Assembly (NCBI GenBank): GCA_026197075.1
Contig: JAPHQV010000020.1
Coordinates: forward strand, 1-32,021
Length of the DNA: 32,021 nucleotides
Direction: 5' to 3'
DNA from: Gammaproteobacteria bacterium
Lineage (GTDB): Bacteria; Pseudomonadota; Gammaproteobacteria; DSM-19610
Shown here: piece after piece, positions 1 to 32,021 of the stretch
How positions within the stretch are numbered: position 1 is the stretch's first letter
How the letters are laid out: the number at the start of each line of letters is the position of its first letter
Made by a program: the position numbers and the translations under genes
Notes under the pieces: generated by a model
Database searches by the model: none
What the model was told of the DNA's origin: nothing
The model's input: the letters and a program-made list of their open reading frames with translations, nothing else

Positions 1-84
1 ATCGATGCGGTGCTGCGGCTCACCCAGCAGGTGGTGGAGGATGCCGAGGGCCTCAATGGCGTAGCCCGCCAATTGGCGGGCTGA
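1..84 (+). CDS. C-terminal tail of an unidentified protein (partial)
   Basis: The window opens inside a reading frame that runs 27 codons to a TGA at 82-84. The visible tail ends in ARQLAG and looks amphipathic and helical (LTQQVVEDAEGL). It has the same strand and codon bias as the FimL-like gene that starts about 100 bp later. A helical tail beside a type IV pilus regulator could belong to a chemotaxis or pilus-signalling protein, but nothing here is diagnostic and I do not assign a family. Confidence 0.55.
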   Translation: MDAVLRLTQQVVEDAEGLNGVARQLAG

Positions 85-187
85 AGGGCAGACTGGACCA
101 CGGCGTGCGGAAGGATTAGCCTAGAACAGGTTGCCACAGACGCAACCGGGCGTTGCGTGATACAGAATAACAAATACAGGATGCGCC

Positions 188-1846
188 ATGGACATCCACA
201 CCCTGGCCCGACAGCGGCCACTCGCACTGGTACGGGAACAGATCCGGGACAGCCTGGACGAGGCTGCCCGCCACCTGGACCGTTTTCACCGCAACCCCGA
301 CCAGAACAGCGAACTCGAAGGCTGCAACGCACGGCTGCGCCAGGTGAGCGGTTGCCTGACCATGCTGGAACTGCCGGGCGCCCTGTGTCTGACCGGCGAG
401 ATGCAGGCCCTGCTGAGCGCCATTGGTGATCCGGACCGGCTCACGCACGAACGCTGCTGCGAACTGCTGATCTCCGCGACCCTGTTCCTGCCCCGCTACC
501 TCGACTACGTACACAGCCTGGGCCGGGAGACGCCTGCCCTGCTGCTGCCCACCATCAACCTGTTGCGCTACGTACGTCGCGCGGGGCTGATCCCGGAACA
601 TGCCTTCGTGGACCACCGCCTGCCGCTGCACGTGCCGCCCACGCCCGACCGTGGAACACCGGCGCATGACGACCTGCCACGCCGGATCCGCAGCCTGCGG
701 CACCAGTACCAGGTGGGGCTGATCGGGGTGATCCGCGACCATGCCCCGCAGAGTCATCTGCAGCTGCTTTCCCGAACCCTGGCGCAGCTACAGACCCTGT
801 GCGGCCAACAGCCCTTCAACGAGGTCTGGCAACTGGCCCTGGGCCTGCTGGAGGCCTTGCGGGACGACCAGTTGAAACTGGATTTCTCACTTCGACACAT
901 GCTCGGCCGCGTGGACCGGGAACTGCGCCGGCTCGTCGACCAGGGACCCGCCCTGCTGGCCCGGCCGATGGACCCGGAGCTGCGCACCCACCTGCTGTAC
1001 TACCTGGCCAAGGCCGACTCCGCCGCGGGTCAGGTACATGCCCTGCGAGTACGCTACCGGCTCAGCGATTGCGTGGACAGTCAACGGCATCTCGAGCAGG
1101 AGCGGCAGCGCCTGCAATCCCCGGACCGAGGCGCCACCGCGGCCGTGGCCGAACAGCTCCTGGACGACCTGGCACAAGTGAAGACCGGCCTGCTGGCCCT
1201 GCAATCCTCGACCGAGGATTCCTCGACCGGGCTGCGCACTCTGCTCGGCAACCTGGACCAGATCGCCCTGACCCTGGAGCTGCTGGGCCTCGACCAGGCC
1301 ATGCACCAGTGCCGACGCATCGCCCGGCAGCTCCCCGCGCTGGCCGCGGACGGCATGTCCGCCAACCTCACCGCCATGGCGGACCAGATGGTCAGCATCG
1401 AGATCGCCCTGCAGGCCTACGCCGAGGGAGTGCCGCTGCAATCCCTGAACCAGGATCACTGCGATCACCTGCGCCTGGCCGAGGAAAACACCCTGCGCGT
1501 GGCGCGCCAATCCCTGGCCGGCATCCGGGATACGCTGGAGGAGCACTTCGATCCCTATGGCCCCGCGGCCGGCCAAGGCCCACTGCCCGAGGCCCTGCTA
1601 CCCATGCTGCGCCAGGTGGAAGGCGCCTTGCGGATGCTGGAACTGACGGAGTTGGCGGAGTTGCTGCATCCACTGACGGCCCTGCTGGGAGAGCAGGGTC
1701 GGCCGCTGCCGGCCGTGGGCAGCCGCGAGCTGACGGACATGGCCGAGGCCATCGCCAGCGTGGAATGGTTCCTGGAGGATTACGGCCGCGAACGCCGGCA
1801 CGCGCCAGCGGCCAGGCCGGCGGAATCCGCCGCCATGCCGGACTGA
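188..1846 (+). CDS. FimL-like / ChpA N-terminal-like pilus regulatory protein
   Basis: This 552-residue soluble protein begins MDIHTLARQR and is rich in Leu, Arg and Gln helices. The layout near residues 20-130 (an early helical bundle, then LPRYLDYV and a LLLPTINLLRYVRRA stretch) matches my memory of Pseudomonas FimL, about 560 aa and related to the N-terminus of ChpA. FimL is a cytoplasmic scaffold linking the Pil-Chp chemosensory system to cAMP and twitching motility. It resembles degenerate Hpt domains that lack the phosphorylatable His motif, and I see no HENAHTIKG-like motif here. There is no signal peptide or membrane segment. The ATG at 188 follows an AGGA at 179-182 with short spacing. 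bolA converges on it 13 bp downstream. The FimL-like call is probable but made without alignment. Confidence 0.65.
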   Translation: MDIHTLARQRPLALVREQIRDSLDEAARHLDRFHRNPDQNSELEGCNARLRQVSGCLTMLELPGALCLTGEMQALLSAIGDPDRLTHERCCELLISATLFLPRYLDYVHSLGRETPALLLPTINLLRYVRRAGLIPEHAFVDHRLPLHVPPTPDRGTPAHDDLPRRIRSLRHQYQVGLIGVIRDHAPQSHLQLLSRTLAQLQTLCGQQPFNEVWQLALGLLEALRDDQLKLDFSLRHMLGRVDRELRRLVDQGPALLARPMDPELRTHLLYYLAKADSAAGQVHALRVRYRLSDCVDSQRHLEQERQRLQSPDRGATAAVAEQLLDDLAQVKTGLLALQSSTEDSSTGLRTLLGNLDQIALTLELLGLDQAMHQCRRIARQLPALAADGMSANLTAMADQMVSIEIALQAYAEGVPLQSLNQDHCDHLRLAEENTLRVARQSLAGIRDTLEEHFDPYGPAAGQGPLPEALLPMLRQVEGALRMLELTELAELLHPLTALLGEQGRPLPAVGSRELTDMAEAIASVEWFLEDYGRERRHAPAARPAESAAMPD

Positions 1847-1859
1847 GGGGCGGCCCGCG

Positions 1860-2180
1860 TCAGGCCTGCCGCTTGCCGCCACCCAGACAGGGTGGTGAAA
1901 GGGGCGCGCTGCCGTGCTTGTCCTCCCAGTCCTGGCGCGTATAGGTGTGCAAGGCCAGGGCATGGATACGGTTCTGCAGTTCGTCGGCCAGTATTTCATT
2001 GACCATGCGGTGGCGGGCCACCAGGCTTTTGTCCTCGAAGGCGTCGGTAACCACCACTACCTTGAAATGGGATTCCGAGCCCGGCGGCACATTGTGCCGG
2101 TGACTTTCGTTTTCCACCTGCAGGTGCAGGGGATGCAGGCCCTCGGCCAGCTTGGTTTCAATGGTTGCCTGTACAGTCAT
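1860..2180 (-). CDS. bolA: BolA family transcriptional regulator / Fe-S cofactor protein
   Basis: The protein has 106 residues, normal for BolA. It carries the family core: ESHRHNVPPGSESHFKVVVV, then RHRMVNEILADEL and a C-terminal HALALHTYTRQDWE. BolA proteins have a class II KH-like fold. They bind monothiol glutaredoxins, often with a shared [2Fe-2S] cluster, and act in morphology and stress responses. The ATG at 2180 starts MTVQATIETKLAEG; the open frame extends much further upstream but only non-BolA sequence lies there. It is divergent from gshA across a 216-bp gap, which is notable because BolA-glutaredoxin function depends on glutathione, the product line of gshA. The stop lies 13 bp from that of the convergent fimL-like gene. 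Confidence 0.95.
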   Translation of the reverse strand: MTVQATIETKLAEGLHPLHLQVENESHRHNVPPGSESHFKVVVVTDAFEDKSLVARHRMVNEILADELQNRIHALALHTYTRQDWEDKHGSAPLSPPCLGGGKRQA

Positions 2181-2301
2181 GTTGCGCAGCCCTCTGCAGG
2201 AATCGGATAGCGCACATTGTACGCAAACGGAGCGTCGAATAAGCCGCCAGTTCGCCGAGGAATCCCGCAAAAACACCACAACATACTGGGTAGAAAGGAA
2301 A

Positions 2302-2330
2302 TTGTACGCAATCCCCGCTTGGTGTAGCCT
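2302..2330 (+). promoter_or_regulatory. Candidate gshA promoter in the bolA-gshA divergent region
   Basis: The 216 bp between bolA and gshA is less GC-rich than its surroundings. A sigma70-like pair can be drawn: TTGTAC at 2302-2307, a 17-bp spacer, and TAGCCT at 2325-2330. On the other strand a TACAAT hexamer (2221-2216) could be the -10 of bolA, but it has no good -35. Both are weak matches and only the spacing is good. Confidence 0.25.
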
Positions 2331-2396
2331 AGCGCCCTCACGGCAGCCGACTCCGGCCCGCCACGACCCCGCCATTCGCAGAAGGACACACCCACC

Positions 2397-3971
2397 TTGG
2401 ATTCGCGCCTCGAAGAACGCCTGGCCCGCCTGTACAACCATGGCCAGCAGACCCTGCTGTGCGGGGGGCTGGTGGGACTGGAGAAGGAAAGCCTGCGCGT
2501 GGCCCCCGATGGCGGCATAGCCCAGACCCCCCACCCCGAGGCACTGGGTTCGGCCCTGACCCACCCCTGGATCACCACCGACTATTCCGAGGCGCTGCTG
2601 GAATTCATCACCCCGCCCTTCCCCGACGCCCTGGAGGCGCTGCGCTTTCTGCGCGATACCCAGCGTTTCGTCTACCCGCGGCTGAATGAAGAACTCCTCT
2701 GGGCCACCAGCATGCCCTGCGTGGTGAGCGGTGAAACCAGCATTCCCATCGCCCACTACGGCAGCTCCAACCCCGGCCTCATGAAGACCGTCTACCGGCG
2801 CGGCCTGGGACATCGCTACGGGCGCATGATGCAGGTCATCGCCGGCGTGCATTTCAACTACTCGGTTCCCGAAGCGTTCTGGCCGGTGTACCAGGCCCTG
2901 GAACAGGATGCGCGCGAACCGCAGGCATTCATCTCGGCGGCCTACTTCGGCATGACGCGTAACCTGCAGCGCTATGGCTGGCTCGTGCCCTACCTGTTCG
3001 GTGCCTCACCGGCAGTGTGCGCATCCTTCCTCGGCGAGCAGGAAGCGAGACTGCCCAAGTTCGACCCCCACACCTACTTCGAACCCTTCGCCACCTCCCT
3101 GCGCATGGGTGACATCGGCTACCAGAACAGTCGCGAGGACAAGGCCGGCGTCAAGGCCAACTATGACAGCCTGGAAGCCTACGTGGACAGCCTCAGCCGC
3201 GCCATCGAAACACCGCATCCCGAGTACGAAAAGATGGGCGTGGTGGTCAACGGGGTGTACGAACAGCTCAACGCCAACCTGTTGCAGATCGAAAACGAGT
3301 ACTACAGCACCATACGTCCCAAGCAGATCCTCGAACCCCTGGAAAAACCCACCCTGGCCCTGAAACGTCGCGGGGTGAAGTACTTGGAACTGCGCTCCCT
3401 CGATGTCAATGCCTTCGATCCCCTCGGCATCAACGAGGAACAACTGCGCTTCCTGGAAACCTTCCTGCTGTTCTGCCTGCTGGAGGACAGCCCGACCGTC
3501 AGCGCCGCCGAGCGGCGCGAAATCGATTACAACCAGAACGCCGCGGCCCACCGCGGACGCGACCCCCGGTTACGTCTGCAGCGCCAGGGTCGGGAAGTGC
3601 CACTGCGCGACTGGGCATTGGAACTGTTGAGCGCCATGGAAGGGGTCAGCGAGGCCCTCGAGGCCGGCCATCCCGAGCGCGGCTACCGGGCCAGTCTGGC
3701 CAACCAGCAGGAAACGGCGCGGGACCCCGACCGCACCCCCTCGGCGCGCATGCTGCGCGAGATGCGCGACACCGGCGAGGGCTTCCATGCCTTTGCCAAG
3801 CGCATGTCCATCAAACACCAGCATTACTTCAAAGCCCTGCCCGAGGATCCGGAGATCACCGCCCGCTTCGAGGCCCAGGCGCGCCAATCCCGGGAGACCC
3901 AGCGCGAGCTGGAGGCCCGCCCCCAGGCACCCTTCGGGGAGTTTCTGGCGGAATATTTCGCCCAGCGCTAG
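2397..3971 (+). CDS. gshA: Glutamate-cysteine ligase, gammaproteobacterial type
   Basis: GshA makes gamma-glutamylcysteine from Glu, Cys and ATP, the first step of glutathione synthesis, in the cytoplasm. The 524-residue length is normal. Strong family blocks are visible: GLEKESLRVAPDG and HPEALGSALTHPWITTDYSE near the N-terminus, ALLEFITPPF, then HYGSSNPGLMKTVYRRGLG, GVHFNYSVPEAFW, VPYLFGASPAV, LLQIENEYYSTIRPKQ and KYLELRSLDVNAFDPLGI. The start is a TTG at 2397 preceded by GAAGGA at 2381-2386; the next in-frame ATG would cut into conserved sequence. The gene stands alone on its strand, divergent from bolA. A second, unrelated ligase family member lies at 11818-13251. Confidence 0.98.
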   Translation: MDSRLEERLARLYNHGQQTLLCGGLVGLEKESLRVAPDGGIAQTPHPEALGSALTHPWITTDYSEALLEFITPPFPDALEALRFLRDTQRFVYPRLNEELLWATSMPCVVSGETSIPIAHYGSSNPGLMKTVYRRGLGHRYGRMMQVIAGVHFNYSVPEAFWPVYQALEQDAREPQAFISAAYFGMTRNLQRYGWLVPYLFGASPAVCASFLGEQEARLPKFDPHTYFEPFATSLRMGDIGYQNSREDKAGVKANYDSLEAYVDSLSRAIETPHPEYEKMGVVVNGVYEQLNANLLQIENEYYSTIRPKQILEPLEKPTLALKRRGVKYLELRSLDVNAFDPLGINEEQLRFLETFLLFCLLEDSPTVSAAERREIDYNQNAAAHRGRDPRLRLQRQGREVPLRDWALELLSAMEGVSEALEAGHPERGYRASLANQQETARDPDRTPSARMLREMRDTGEGFHAFAKRMSIKHQHYFKALPEDPEITARFEAQARQSRETQRELEARPQAPFGEFLAEYFAQR

Positions 3972-27403: not shown

Positions 27404-28390
27404 TCACCCCGCCCCGAGCACATCCGACAGCGGGCTGACCACCGCATTGCCGCCGCGCTGCAGTACATGCGTGTAAATCTGCGTGGTGCGAATATCCTTG
27501 TGCCCCAGTTGTTCCTGCACCGTACGAATGTCCATGCCGCGCTCCAGCAGGTGGGTGGCAAAGCAATGGCGCAGCGTATGGCAACTGGCCGGCTTGGTTA
27601 TGCCCGCCTTGCGAACCGCCAGCTTGATGGCCCGTTGCAGGCAGCTTTCATCCAGGTGATGACGCCGGGTAACCCCAGAACGTGGATCGACACTGCGCTT
27701 GCTGGCGGGAAACACATATTGCCAAGCGAATTCCGACGGAGCCCGGGGGTACTTGCGTGCCAACGCGTGCGGAAGCCAGACCGCGCCGAATCCGTCCTGC
27801 AAGTCCTTACCGTGTAATTGCCGCACCCGCGCCAACTGCTGTTTCAGCGGTTCGATGCAGGGATCGGGCAGGGTAACCACGCGATCCTTTCCCCCTTTTC
27901 CGCAGCGCACCGTGATGGCACGGTGGTCGAAATCCAGATCCTTTACCCGCAGACGCAGGCACTCCATCAGGCGCAAGCCGGAGCCATAAAGAAGGCAGGC
28001 CGGCAACCAGTGGGGGCCATCCAGGTGTGCAAACAGTCGCCGCACTTCCGCCCTGGTCAGAATTACAGGCAGCCGTTCAGGTCGTTTGGCGCGCACCGCA
28101 TCAAGGATGTCCCCCAGCGGCCGGTCGAGCACATAGCGGTAGAGAAACACCAGCGCATTCAGGGCCTGATTCTGGGTGCTGGGCGACACCTGACGATCGA
28201 CCGCCAGGTGCGACAGGAACGCCGCCACCTCGGTTTCACCCAGCTCGCTCGGATGGCGCTTGCCATGGAACAGAATGAAACGCTTTGCCCAATGAACATA
28301 GGATTGCTCGGTTCGGATACTGTAATGCCGGGTGCGGATGACCTCCCGCACACGGTTGAGAAACGGCGACTTTTCGTCAGCGTTCTGCAT
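27404..28390 (-). CDS. intI: Integron integrase (tyrosine recombinase)
   Basis: IntI recombines attC with attI to capture and shuffle cassettes. 328 residues. Catalytic residues can be placed: R140 in GSGLRLME, Lys in GKGGKDR (162-169), H271 and R274 in HTLRH, H297 in LGHKDI, and nucleophile Y306 in TTQIYTHV. The extra segment at about 213-255, with [12 protein letters not shown], is the IntI-specific patch that binds extrahelical bases of folded att[22 protein letters not shown] is the typical N-terminus. I chose the ATG at 28390 with GAGG upstream; the open frame to 28450 lies across the promoter. It looks intact and functional, and it carries a LexA box. Confidence 0.96.
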
Positions 28391-28408
28391 GATCAGATCC
28401 CTCCATGG

Positions 28409-28436
28409 ACTGTACACATTTACAGTAGTACGGCAA
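28409..28436 (-). promoter_or_regulatory. intI promoter with LexA (SOS) operator
   Basis: On the minus strand TTGCCG (28436-28431) and TACAGT (28414-28409) are separated by 16 bp, a fair sigma70 pair 19 bp upstream of the intI ATG. The LexA box CTGTAAATGTGTACAG (28425-28410) fits CTGT-N8-ACAG exactly and overlaps the -10 box. LexA bound here would block intI until the SOS response. Integrase genes of Vibrio cholerae and class 1 integrons are known to be controlled this way. Confidence 0.8.
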
Positions 28437-28538
28437 TGTCCAAATGGCAAGGGCGGGATAGGCGGGAAACCGAGGCTTATTCACGGCCGCCGGCCTGAAT
28501 GAAATCACGATACAGCAGGAAGCGGTCCGCGAATGTCC

Positions 28539-28567
28539 TTGAAATAATACGGAATTGCCGGTAGCGT
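28539..28567 (+). promoter_or_regulatory. Candidate cassette promoter (Pc)
   Basis: TTGAAA (28539-28544), a 17-bp spacer and TAGCGT (28562-28567) point toward the cassettes from the intI-attI gap. The -35 is good (5/6) and the -10 poor (3/6). The 338-bp gap between the intI start and the first cassette gene (28391-28728) otherwise holds the intI promoter, attI and the structured leader of cassette 1, and no supported gene. Confidence 0.3.
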
Positions 28568-28620
28568 TCGGCAAGATACCAACAATAATCCAACAAGCTA
28601 GGAGATGGGATATGTCGGAG

Positions 28621-28668
28621 TTTCACGTGTTTAAACACCGCAACATCCAACATACACACTGTTATGTT
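28621..28668 (+). other. attI recombination site (approximate extent)
   Basis: The exchange point is G28661/T28662 in CACTGTTATGTTG. It is fixed by the R'' arm of the first attC (CAACATAAC at 29147-29155), which is complementary to GTTATGTTG at 28661-28669. To its left is CAACATCCAACATACACACT; CAACAT (28641-28646) and ATGTTG (28664-28669) form an inverted pair like the L and R boxes of a simple site. The left limit is a guess. attI is recognised as double-stranded DNA by IntI. Confidence 0.75.
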
Positions 28669-28728
28669 GTCGAGCTGCCTACGAGAAGTAGAAGCACTTA
28701 TGAGCCTAAGTTGTAGGCAGTGAGTTAC
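28662..28728 (+). promoter_or_regulatory. Structured leader with a micro-ORF in cassette 1
   Basis: CTGCCTAC (28675-28682) pairs with GTAGGCAG (28713-28720), closing a loop in which two small hairpins exclude each other: AAGT/ACTT (28686-28699) and CTTA/TAAG (28697-28710). A 19-codon ORF starts at the ATG formed by the core site (28664) and stops at 28721-28723, five bases before the ATG of the cassette gene. This resembles the ORF-11 arrangement at attI1, which aids translation of cassette genes. Function here is inference. Confidence 0.35.
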
Positions 28729-29100
28729 ATGGGAATTCAGTCGCTGAAAATAGTTGCATCGGTTGTTGCCAGAATCATTTTGTTTGGTGTTGGCTATATG
28801 CTACTTGCTACAAGCCAGTTTCATGGTCTTGATTTTAATTTAGGGACATTATCAGGAATAGGAATAATCGTAGCTTCCTTAACTCCATATTCATCTGTGA
28901 GTGCCGCACGTAAAATTGGAAGCCTGCTCGTCATTTTAACGGGTTCTATTTTATATATTTTTATCTCGGTAGAAATACTATTTTTAGAGCATTCTGAAGG
29001 GCTATCTGCAGCGGATATATCGTATTTACTGCCCCTGGTATGCTTGGGATATCTAGCCTTTCGGCTTCTTCAACCGACAAATGAAAATACAAATGGGTGA
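28729..29100 (+). CDS. Cassette 1: four-helix membrane protein of unknown function
   Basis: 123 residues from the ATG at 28729 (a GTG at 28720 would add three). Four hydrophobic segments: about 6-27 (VASVVARIILFGVGYMLLA), 36-54 (GTLSGIGIIVASLTPYSS), 62-86 (IGSLLVILTGSILYIFISVE) and 95-114 (ISYLLPLVCLGYLAFRLL). The tail QPTNENTNG is short and polar. I know no family. It is AT-rich, unlike the chromosome. The stop is 48 bp before attC1. Small inner-membrane proteins are common in integron cassettes, with roles from efflux to phage defence, none of which can be read here. Confidence 0.8.
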   Translation: MGIQSLKIVASVVARIILFGVGYMLLATSQFHGLDFNLGTLSGIGIIVASLTPYSSVSAARKIGSLLVILTGSILYIFISVEILFLEHSEGLSAADISYLLPLVCLGYLAFRLLQPTNENTNG

Positions 29101-29148: not shown

Positions 29149-29205
29149 ACATAACAAGGCGGCAAAGGCTGACGGCTTCGCCGCAGCTTGCCTTGGTCGT
29201 TACGT
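29149..29205 (+). other. attC site of cassette 1
   Basis: 57 bp. R'' ACATAAC (29149-29155), L'' CAAGGC, L' GCCTTG, R' GTTACGT (29199-29205). The inner part folds as a CGGC-ttc-GCCG hairpin. Exchange occurs after G29199. Only the bottom strand, folded, would be the IntI substrate. Confidence 0.88.
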
Positions 29206-29737: not shown

Positions 29738-29825
29738 ACGTAACAAGCGGCTGCTGTCGGACAGTCAAAAGCTCCGGCCAAAAAGCGGCCTCCACTTTTG
29801 CCTGCCGCAGAGCCGGGCGTTATAC
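29738..29825 (+). other. attC site of cassette 2
   Basis: 88 bp, the longest of the array. R'' ACGTAAC (29738-29744) and R' GTTATAC (29819-29825). The R'' side reads CACACGTAAC and the cassette begins GTTACGTGTC: nine bases match. Inner stem pieces are CAAAAG/CTTTTG and GGCC-aaaaagc-GGCC. It starts 8 bp after the ORF stop. Confidence 0.88.
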
Positions 29826-30469: not shown

Positions 30470-30541
30470 GTATAACAAGTCGCTCGTTCGGACGCAAACT
30501 ACGCTGCGCTTCGTTTGCGCCGCACAGCGTCAACGTTATGT
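30470..30541 (+). other. attC site of cassette 3
   Basis: 72 bp. R'' GTATAAC (30470-30476) within GGTATAAC, the complement of the cassette start GTTATACC. R' GTTATGT (30535-30541). The stem includes GCAAAC / GTTTGC around ACGCTGCGCTTC. Its AACAAGTC and CGACGC-type bases resemble attC5, so these two may come from related integrons. Confidence 0.88.
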
Positions 30542-30559: not shown

Positions 30560-30949
30560 ATGGGTAATCGAATAGCATCCATCATGCTTTCATTATTGTT
30601 TTCGGCCTCTGTGGTGGCATCAGATAGTTCGCTCGAAGAAAAAATACAAAGCCTGAATGATGCTTCGATTAAATCAGTTGGCATCTCCCTTAATGCGCTT
30701 GCCTACCTAGTAAGCGCTTCCCCGAATAGTTATATGCCGTTGTGGCATTTAGAGCAGAGCGGCGAAATTGCTTATATAAAAGAATTAGAGAAGGCTGGCT
30801 ATGTAAAAGTTAATATTACTGAGGGCCTTCCGGACGGACAAATGAGAGGAGAAAAGCAAGTAAATATAGTGCCTTTGCATTCCGGGCTCGAAGTCCAGCG
30901 GTGCATGCTGGCATTGAAACATAACAATTCAACCCAGCCGACGCAGTAA
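30560..30949 (+). CDS. Cassette 4: small secreted protein of unknown function
   Basis: 129 residues. Signal peptide MGNRIASIMLSLLFSASVVAS, cut near residue 20, so a periplasmic location is likely. The mature part has SLEEKIQSLNDASIKSVGISLNALAYL, PLWHLEQSGEIAYIKELEKAGYVKV and QVNIVPLHSGLEVQRCMLALK. No known domain. Strong AGGAGAG before the ATG at 30560. The last nine codons and the stop lie inside attC4, so HNNSTQPTQ is encoded by the recombination site. A nine-codon ORF from the core-site ATG (30538) stops at 30565-30567, overlapping this start. Confidence 0.82.
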   Translation: MGNRIASIMLSLLFSASVVASDSSLEEKIQSLNDASIKSVGISLNALAYLVSASPNSYMPLWHLEQSGEIAYIKELEKAGYVKVNITEGLPDGQMRGEKQVNIVPLHSGLEVQRCMLALKHNNSTQPTQ

Positions 30950-30977
30950 ACTGCGCGGCTGGTTTCAGACGTTATAA
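30919..30977 (+). other. attC site of cassette 4
   Basis: 59 bp. R'' ACATAAC (30919-30925) within GAAACATAAC, the complement of the cassette start GTTATGTTTC over ten bases. R' GTTATAA (30971-30977). A clean stem CCAGCC-ga-CGCAG-taaa-CTGCG-c-GGCTGG with unpaired bases on one side, as expected for the extrahelical bases that IntI reads. Confidence 0.9.
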
Positions 30978-30983
30978 CGCAAT

Positions 30984-31382
30984 ATGAAATGGATACTTCT
31001 AATAATTGGAGTGGGAATAATTAGAGGCTTAGTCTTTCCGGATTACCGGTTCCAACCGAACATAGTAATAATTCCATTTGTCATGCCTCTATTAATTGCT
31101 GCTCTTTCGGCCTACCTAGGCGCCACAAAGCGCTTAAGCTGGCGAGGTTCCGGTGGATGGGGTTTGTTGTCAGTTTATCTATCAACACTCATTGGAATAT
31201 TTGTTTACGGGGTTTCGGAAGGGTGGCAATACGTAACAGATGATACTGAATCACAGGCCGTATTTATGGCAACAATCGGTATTCAAACGGTTACATTTAT
31301 TGTTGGCTTTGTAATTTTGTCGCTATTGGTAAAGCGTTATAACAAGTCATTCAAACCGACGCCAAAAAGCGGCGCGGTTTAA
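30984..31382 (+). CDS. Cassette 5: four-helix membrane protein of unknown function
   Basis: 132 residues. Hydrophobic segments at about 3-18 (WILLIIGVGIIRGLVF), 27-47 (IVIIPFVMPLLIAALSAYLGA), 59-79 (GLLSVYLSTLIGIFVYGV) and 93-114 (FMATIGIQTVTFIVGFVILSLL). The final YNKSFKPTPKSGAV is encoded by attC5, not by the cassette's own coding body. The ATG is exactly 12 nt inside the cassette, with no Shine-Dalgarno. The previous ORF stops 34 nt upstream, within attC4, so coupled translation is plausible. No family recognised. Confidence 0.8.
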   Translation: MKWILLIIGVGIIRGLVFPDYRFQPNIVIIPFVMPLLIAALSAYLGATKRLSWRGSGGWGLLSVYLSTLIGIFVYGVSEGWQYVTDDTESQAVFMATIGIQTVTFIVGFVILSLLVKRYNKSFKPTPKSGAV

Positions 31383-31396
31383 TTCTAACGTTATAC
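31337..31396 (+). other. attC site of cassette 5
   Basis: 60 bp. R'' TTATAAC (31337-31343) within GCGTTATAAC, the complement of the cassette start GTTATAACGC over ten bases. R' GTTATAC (31390-31396). Stem AAACCG-a-CGCC-aaaaag-CGGCG-c-GGTTT. Read as protein in the cassette frame it gives NKSFKPTPKSGAV and then a stop. Confidence 0.9.
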
Positions 31397-31897: not shown

Positions 31898-31922
31898 GTA
31901 TAACCAATCGCCCCAGCCGGAC
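31898..31922 (+). other. attC site of cassette 6, interrupted
   Basis: R'' GTATAAC (31898-31904) within GCAACGTATAAC, the complement of the cassette start GTTATACGTTGC over twelve bases. The left stem strand runs on to about 31922 and then IS sequence begins; no L' or R' arm is present in the window. The other half may lie beyond the IS. Confidence 0.75.
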
Positions 31923-32021
31923 TGAACTAGCACCACTTTCGTGGACACTTTACGCGCACAGCTTTTCATATTTAATCGGCGATTGGTAGCCGATTCCCGA
32001 GTGGAGTCGATCCCGGTTGTA
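31923..32021 (-). mobile_element. IS3-family insertion sequence, end only
   Basis: From TGAACTAGCACCACTTTCGT onward the DNA no longer fits the cassette. It has the TG end and short non-coding tip usual for IS3-family elements, followed by the end of a transposase gene in reverse. The rest lies outside the window, so the second end and the target duplication cannot be seen. Confidence 0.75.
31950..32021 (-). CDS. IS3-family transposase (OrfB), C-terminal fragment
   Basis: Reading leftward from the window edge, 23 codons and a TAA give YNRDRLHSGIGYQSPIKYEK plus LCA. The YN-x-x-R-x-HSxxGYxSPxxYE pattern is the C-terminal signature of IS3-family integrase-core transposases (normally Y-N-x-x-R-x-H-S-x-L-G-Y-x-S-P). 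The rest of the gene, including most of the DDE core, lies outside the window, so intactness is unknown. Confidence 0.82.
   Translation of the reverse strand, partial: YNRDRLHSGIGYQSPIKYEKLCA

Follow-up and report, generated by a model that had tools for sequence, protein, structure and literature searches.

The stretch of DNA analysed here (the window, 32,021 nt from a member of the Gammaproteobacteria) carries an integron whose integrase gene, intI, is preceded by a palindrome resembling the LexA operator, raising the question of whether integrase expression belongs to the SOS response of the host. The first-pass annotation had reported an exact CTGT-N8-ACAG match at 28410-28425, overlapping the −10 element of intI. 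The exact match was borne out, and it is the sole exact copy in the window; sites with one mismatch number 5, versus about 9 expected by chance. The elements preceding intI, and intI itself, are as follows.

28445-28450, minus strand: predicted −35 hexamer TTGCCA, 5/6 consensus positions, from the sequence
28422-28427, minus strand: predicted −10 hexamer TACTGT, which doubles as the operator's left half-site, spaced 17 bp from the −35
28408-28427, minus strand: predicted LexA operator (SOS box), 20-mer TACTGTAAATGTGTACAGTC, 16-bp core at 28410-28425
28399-28404, minus strand: Shine-Dalgarno GGAGGG, 8 nt before the intI ATG, from the sequence
27404-28390, minus strand: intI, integron integrase, 328 aa, complete (TIGR02249, 497 bits; cut-off 265)

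The 20-mer reads from 28427 to 28408 on the strand of intI and includes two flanking bases on each side, and its core reads CTGTAAATGTGTACAG on that (minus) strand and CTGTACACATTTACAG on the plus strand. The start codon of intI is the ATG at 28390, leaving a gap of 17 bp from the end of the 20-mer and 20 bp from the end of the core, which falls inside the −100 to +50 range. The best −10 hexamer upstream of intI, TACTGT, is at the same time the left half of the SOS box, and the arrangement TTGCCA-17 bp-TACTGT puts the box across the −10, so that the proposed overlap held up as a consensus prediction. A generic sigma-70 scan misses the intI promoter, since TACTGT agrees with the −10 consensus at just three of six positions; for the cassette promoter Pc, the consensus scan returned no promoter-like site in 28250-28760. 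Of the 35 promoters of intI in relatives that carry a box, 9 have a TTGACA-like −35 (4/6 or better) 17 bp from the box, compared with 0-4 for other spacings. This commonest −35/box spacing fits the first six bases of the box serving as the −10.

Taken alone, the eight-base match is weak evidence, since the bare CTGT-N8-ACAG pattern occurs 14 times in the 2.99-Mb genome and its reversed control 15 times; for want of enrichment over this control, the bare count was dropped as evidence. The same parity speaks for the view that a 16-mer happens to lie upstream of intI without any function. The match becomes strong because of its location and its extended sequence. At 14 sites per 2.99 Mb, the chance of any copy falling within 100 bp before intI is about 5e-4 for the place alone. 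On a scoring matrix derived from 19 SOS boxes of E. coli, the intI box scores 18.6 and no other site in the window exceeds 9.6, the E. coli boxes themselves spanning 13.3-25.7 (9.2-24.9 in leave-one-out). No site reached 18.6 in a scan of 3 Mb of first-order Markov random sequence with this matrix, which separates bound from unbound sites imperfectly, three E. coli sites scoring below 14. Elsewhere in the host genome, a very strong SOS-like box (22.0) was located at G000:C47:20818-20833 (L168 3319-3334), in the gap between a gene for a 691-aa secreted-looking protein and short ORFs.

The first-pass annotation had also considered that the host might lack LexA or possess a LexA with a different operator, and neither turned out to be the case. 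The host genome holds two LexA genes, LexA1 (contig C1) and LexA2 (contig C16). LexA1 (TIGR00498, 237 bits) shares 66% identity with E. coli LexA, retains the AG cleavage site and the catalytic Ser/Lys dyad, and has a recognition segment (FRSPNAAEDHLKALARKGVIE) near-identical to that of E. coli (FRSPNAAEEHLKALARKGVIE), with one conservative change. Two E. coli-like boxes stand on the host lexA promoter (scores 18.8 and 12.3), and the box on the recA promoter, TACTGTATATTTACCCAGTC, scores 21.3; the CCAG half-sites seen in these host boxes occur in E. coli lexA and uvrD as well. From the recognition segment and the lexA and recA promoter boxes we infer that the SOS operator of this host is of the E. 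coli type and that LexA1 would recognise it. In quality, the intI box (18.6) equals the stronger of the two boxes on the host lexA promoter (18.8). LexA2, which is divergent (35% identity to E. coli LexA), was not favoured as the intI regulator, its recognition region being different (SSRGSLHKHISALVEAG) and its own upstream region containing no E. coli-like box. The LexA2 gene, at G000:C16:35503 (L006 1492-2097), has no imuA/imuB behind it, and the gene that does follow is one we take, by eye, to be polyphosphate-kinase-2-like.

Comparison with related genomes, which had been suggested as a check, gave a positive result. In the same family, 11 of 13 intI promoters were boxed (score at least 12, position −22 to −39 relative to the expected start), the set including the window's own gene and two genes from G006. 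The core hardly changes among these family boxes, which differ in their inner bases, as in TTCATCCA, TTCAAATA and ATATATCT. In the nearest relatives (G003, G017 and G140; IntI 74-76% identical) the box lies at −36 to −38, and here at −37. This recurrence at the homologous promoter, added to the placement and to a score never reached in random sequence, leaves a chance palindrome with next to no prospect of being the explanation. Boxed promoters in the family include those of genomes with the integron at another locus. The idea that the family inherited the integron vertically at a single locus was rejected: a long distance separates apaH from intI in G003 and G140, and the remaining relatives with intI that were checked have the two on different contigs.

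According to a published rule, an integrase tends to keep its SOS box where the host has an E. coli-type LexA (Cambray 2011, PMC3108266). We reproduced this rule among the genomes of relatives that had intI and a readable promoter, sorted by hand, an E. coli-type LexA being defined by at least 80 bits to PF01726 and G009, with a cut-off LexA gene, being excluded. The box was present in 18 of the 26 genomes with such a LexA, the other 8 having no box on intI, versus 1 of the 16 genomes without it (Fisher p=7.6e-5, uncorrected for relatedness). A same-genus sister genome (G001; apaH 89% identical) carries a truncated intI remnant beside apaH, in the same place as in the window (L179, reverse complement 2650-3447), where the box TACGGTAAAAAAACACAGTC has lost one core base (CGGT-N8-ACAG) and scores 13.8. 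The published correlation, in which integrases that have lost LexA control are usually broken (PMC3108266), leads one to expect just this combination of a truncated integrase and a decaying box. The rest of intI in G001 is replaced by two small genes. By eye, we take these to resemble a BrnT/BrnA toxin-antitoxin pair.

A different reading of the palindrome came from the host genome itself. The sole other exact copy of its outer part, ACTGTA-N6-TACAGT, lies in the sequence AACTGTAGGATCCTACAGTT at G000:C39:93338-93355 (L169 2339-2356), between a LuxR-type gene (Autoind_bind and GerE) and a LuxI-type gene (Autoind_synth), and this lux box scores 15.5 on the LexA matrix. The outer palindrome alone therefore does not tell LexA from LuxR, and the intI site could be read, wholly or also, by a LuxR-type regulator of the host, making intI follow cell density. 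The centres of the two sites differ: GGATCC in the host lux box and AATGTG at intI, the latter sharing only one of six positions with GGATCG, the centre of the V. fischeri lux-box consensus. Lux boxes lie upstream of the −35, whereas the intI site overlaps the −10, so that neither the centre nor the place is that of a lux box. LuxI was not seen in most relatives with boxed intI promoters (G002, G006, G009, G015, G017, G034, G052, G071, G096, G100, G129 and G138), and the persistence of the box in such genomes speaks for LexA; some of the relatives' intI boxes also have CCAG half-sites, normal for LexA. We therefore regard control by cell density as highly improbable, and scarcely less so a double control in which LexA would repress and a LuxR-type regulator would bind the same palindrome at the intI promoter. 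If double control were true, cassette shuffling would depend on both DNA damage and cell density. In practical terms, lux boxes may pass for LexA/SOS boxes in genome scans.

The reading as a LexA operator that places intI in the host SOS regulon is thus the one we consider very likely, judging from the sequence evidence. In the rest of the integron, the following sites were identified.

28661-28667, plus strand: attI crossover core GTTATGT, the start of cassette 1, complementary to the first attC R'' box ACATAAC
29149-29205, plus strand: attC 1, 57 bp, pairing R''/R' boxes, bottom-strand hairpin
29738-29825, plus strand: attC 2, 88 bp, located by R''/R' matching
30470-30541, plus strand: attC 3, 72 bp, located by R''/R' matching
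30919-30977, plus strand: attC 4, 59 bp, located by R''/R' matching
31337-31396, plus strand: attC 5, 60 bp, located by R''/R' matching
31898-32021, plus strand: start of attC 6 (GTATAAC), apparently interrupted; R'' box at 31898, contig end at 32021

The integron appears intact, with a complete IntI, an attI and five folded attC sites. Over its whole length IntI aligns with V. cholerae IntI4 (PDB 2a3v), and in this alignment the catalytic R, H-x-x-R, H and Y are all in place. The attC sites gave no Rfam matches and were located by R''/R' matching instead; all five (57-88 bp) form a bottom-strand hairpin and have an R'' box complementary to the sequence with which their own cassette begins. 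The six cassette ORFs gave no family matches in Pfam or NCBIfam. Positions 32021-31949 on the minus strand translate to YNRDRLHSGIGYQSPIKYEKLCA followed by a stop, recognised by eye as what is presumably the terminal part of an IS3-type element. The contig stops inside this apparent interruption of attC 6, so the cassette array may go on.

In favour of SOS control, the sequence shows the predicted box, a plausible promoter, a compatible LexA/RecA pair, conservation in relatives, and an integron with an intact IntI, an attI and five attC sites. That LexA binds the site, that SOS induces intI and that cassettes are affected is inferred from what is known of Vibrio and class 1 integrons (PMC3108266, PMC2958807, PMC8946536). 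Cassette shuffling is very probably switched on by DNA damage, as known for other integrons. In the unstressed cell, a LexA dimer lying over the −10 and the transcription start, predicted near 28415, would bar RNA polymerase from intI. Build-up of single-stranded DNA through damage, stalled forks or incoming DNA would lead to RecA filaments and to self-cleavage of LexA, upon which intI would be transcribed and give a burst of IntI. The integrase would then recombine attC hairpins with attI or with each other, so that cassettes would be shuffled or captured.

In several relatives, lexA itself was found immediately 3' of intI in the same orientation, an arrangement seen in 5 of the 144 genomes with intI in the class sample. 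The loci are L165 (G138; 3-3050, minus), L166 (G100; 1094-2808, minus), L175/L038 (G323; 373-1972, plus), L176 (G162) and L177 (G274), together with L076. In G138 the order is intI, lexA, imuA (NF033429) and an ORF with no NCBIfam match, which is probably imuB, as it resembles the frame behind imuA in another genome. The only strong LexA box in G138 and G100 is the one before intI, suggesting that intI would head a self-regulated SOS cluster there. In G323, intI and lexA almost touch, and in G162 and G274 an intI-lexA-imuA order (imuA being NF033429 in G162 and a close homologue in G274) comes with extra boxes before lexA. The window's own genome has no such arrangement. It is less familiar than an SOS-boxed intI, and no description of it was found in the literature searched, although an earlier one may exist.

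Among known systems, the class 2 integrase intI2 provides a precedent for doubting the box: it also has CTGT-N8-ACAG over the intI promoter, and its box, CTGTATAGGCAGACAG, looks good, yet it gave no gel shift with LexA and no SOS effect (PMC5559693). By this precedent the box described here could be a relic or too weak for LexA control, with a poor promoter giving steady, low expression of intI; the 3/6 match of the −10 is in keeping with this, as are the eight inner bases AAATGTGT, three of which deviate from a consensus of the TATATATA type. The two sites differ in their 10-bp centre, which has 4 G/C in intI2 and 2 here, and in their 16-bp core, which scores 14.7 in CTGTATAGGCAGACAG and 16.7 here, on par with the host lexA boxes (16.2 and 17.5). 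The higher core score and the fewer central G/C favour LexA binding, though they are not proof of it. Moreover, the usual intI2 is broken (PMC5559693) whereas IntI here is intact, which is not what usually accompanies lost LexA control, and it is the decayed sister copy in G001 that carries the damaged box. A relic or ineffective box is, on balance, unlikely.

The locus more closely resembles the SOS-controlled integrase promoters of V. cholerae intIA and class 1 intI1 (PMC3108266; Baharoglu 2010, PMC2958807), with which it shares an E. coli-type LexA box over the intI −10, a compatible host LexA, and an intact IntI, attI and attC array. It differs from them in belonging to another gammaproteobacterial lineage and in its short array of cassettes without family matches beside apaH; the V. 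cholerae system also has a CRP site. The intI box of the window is thus a new and well-supported case of an established rule. With it, a further gammaproteobacterial lineage joins those obeying the rule of Cambray et al., and a natural same-genus pair becomes available, in which the intact, boxed integrase described here has as its counterpart in the sister species a truncated intI whose box is damaged.
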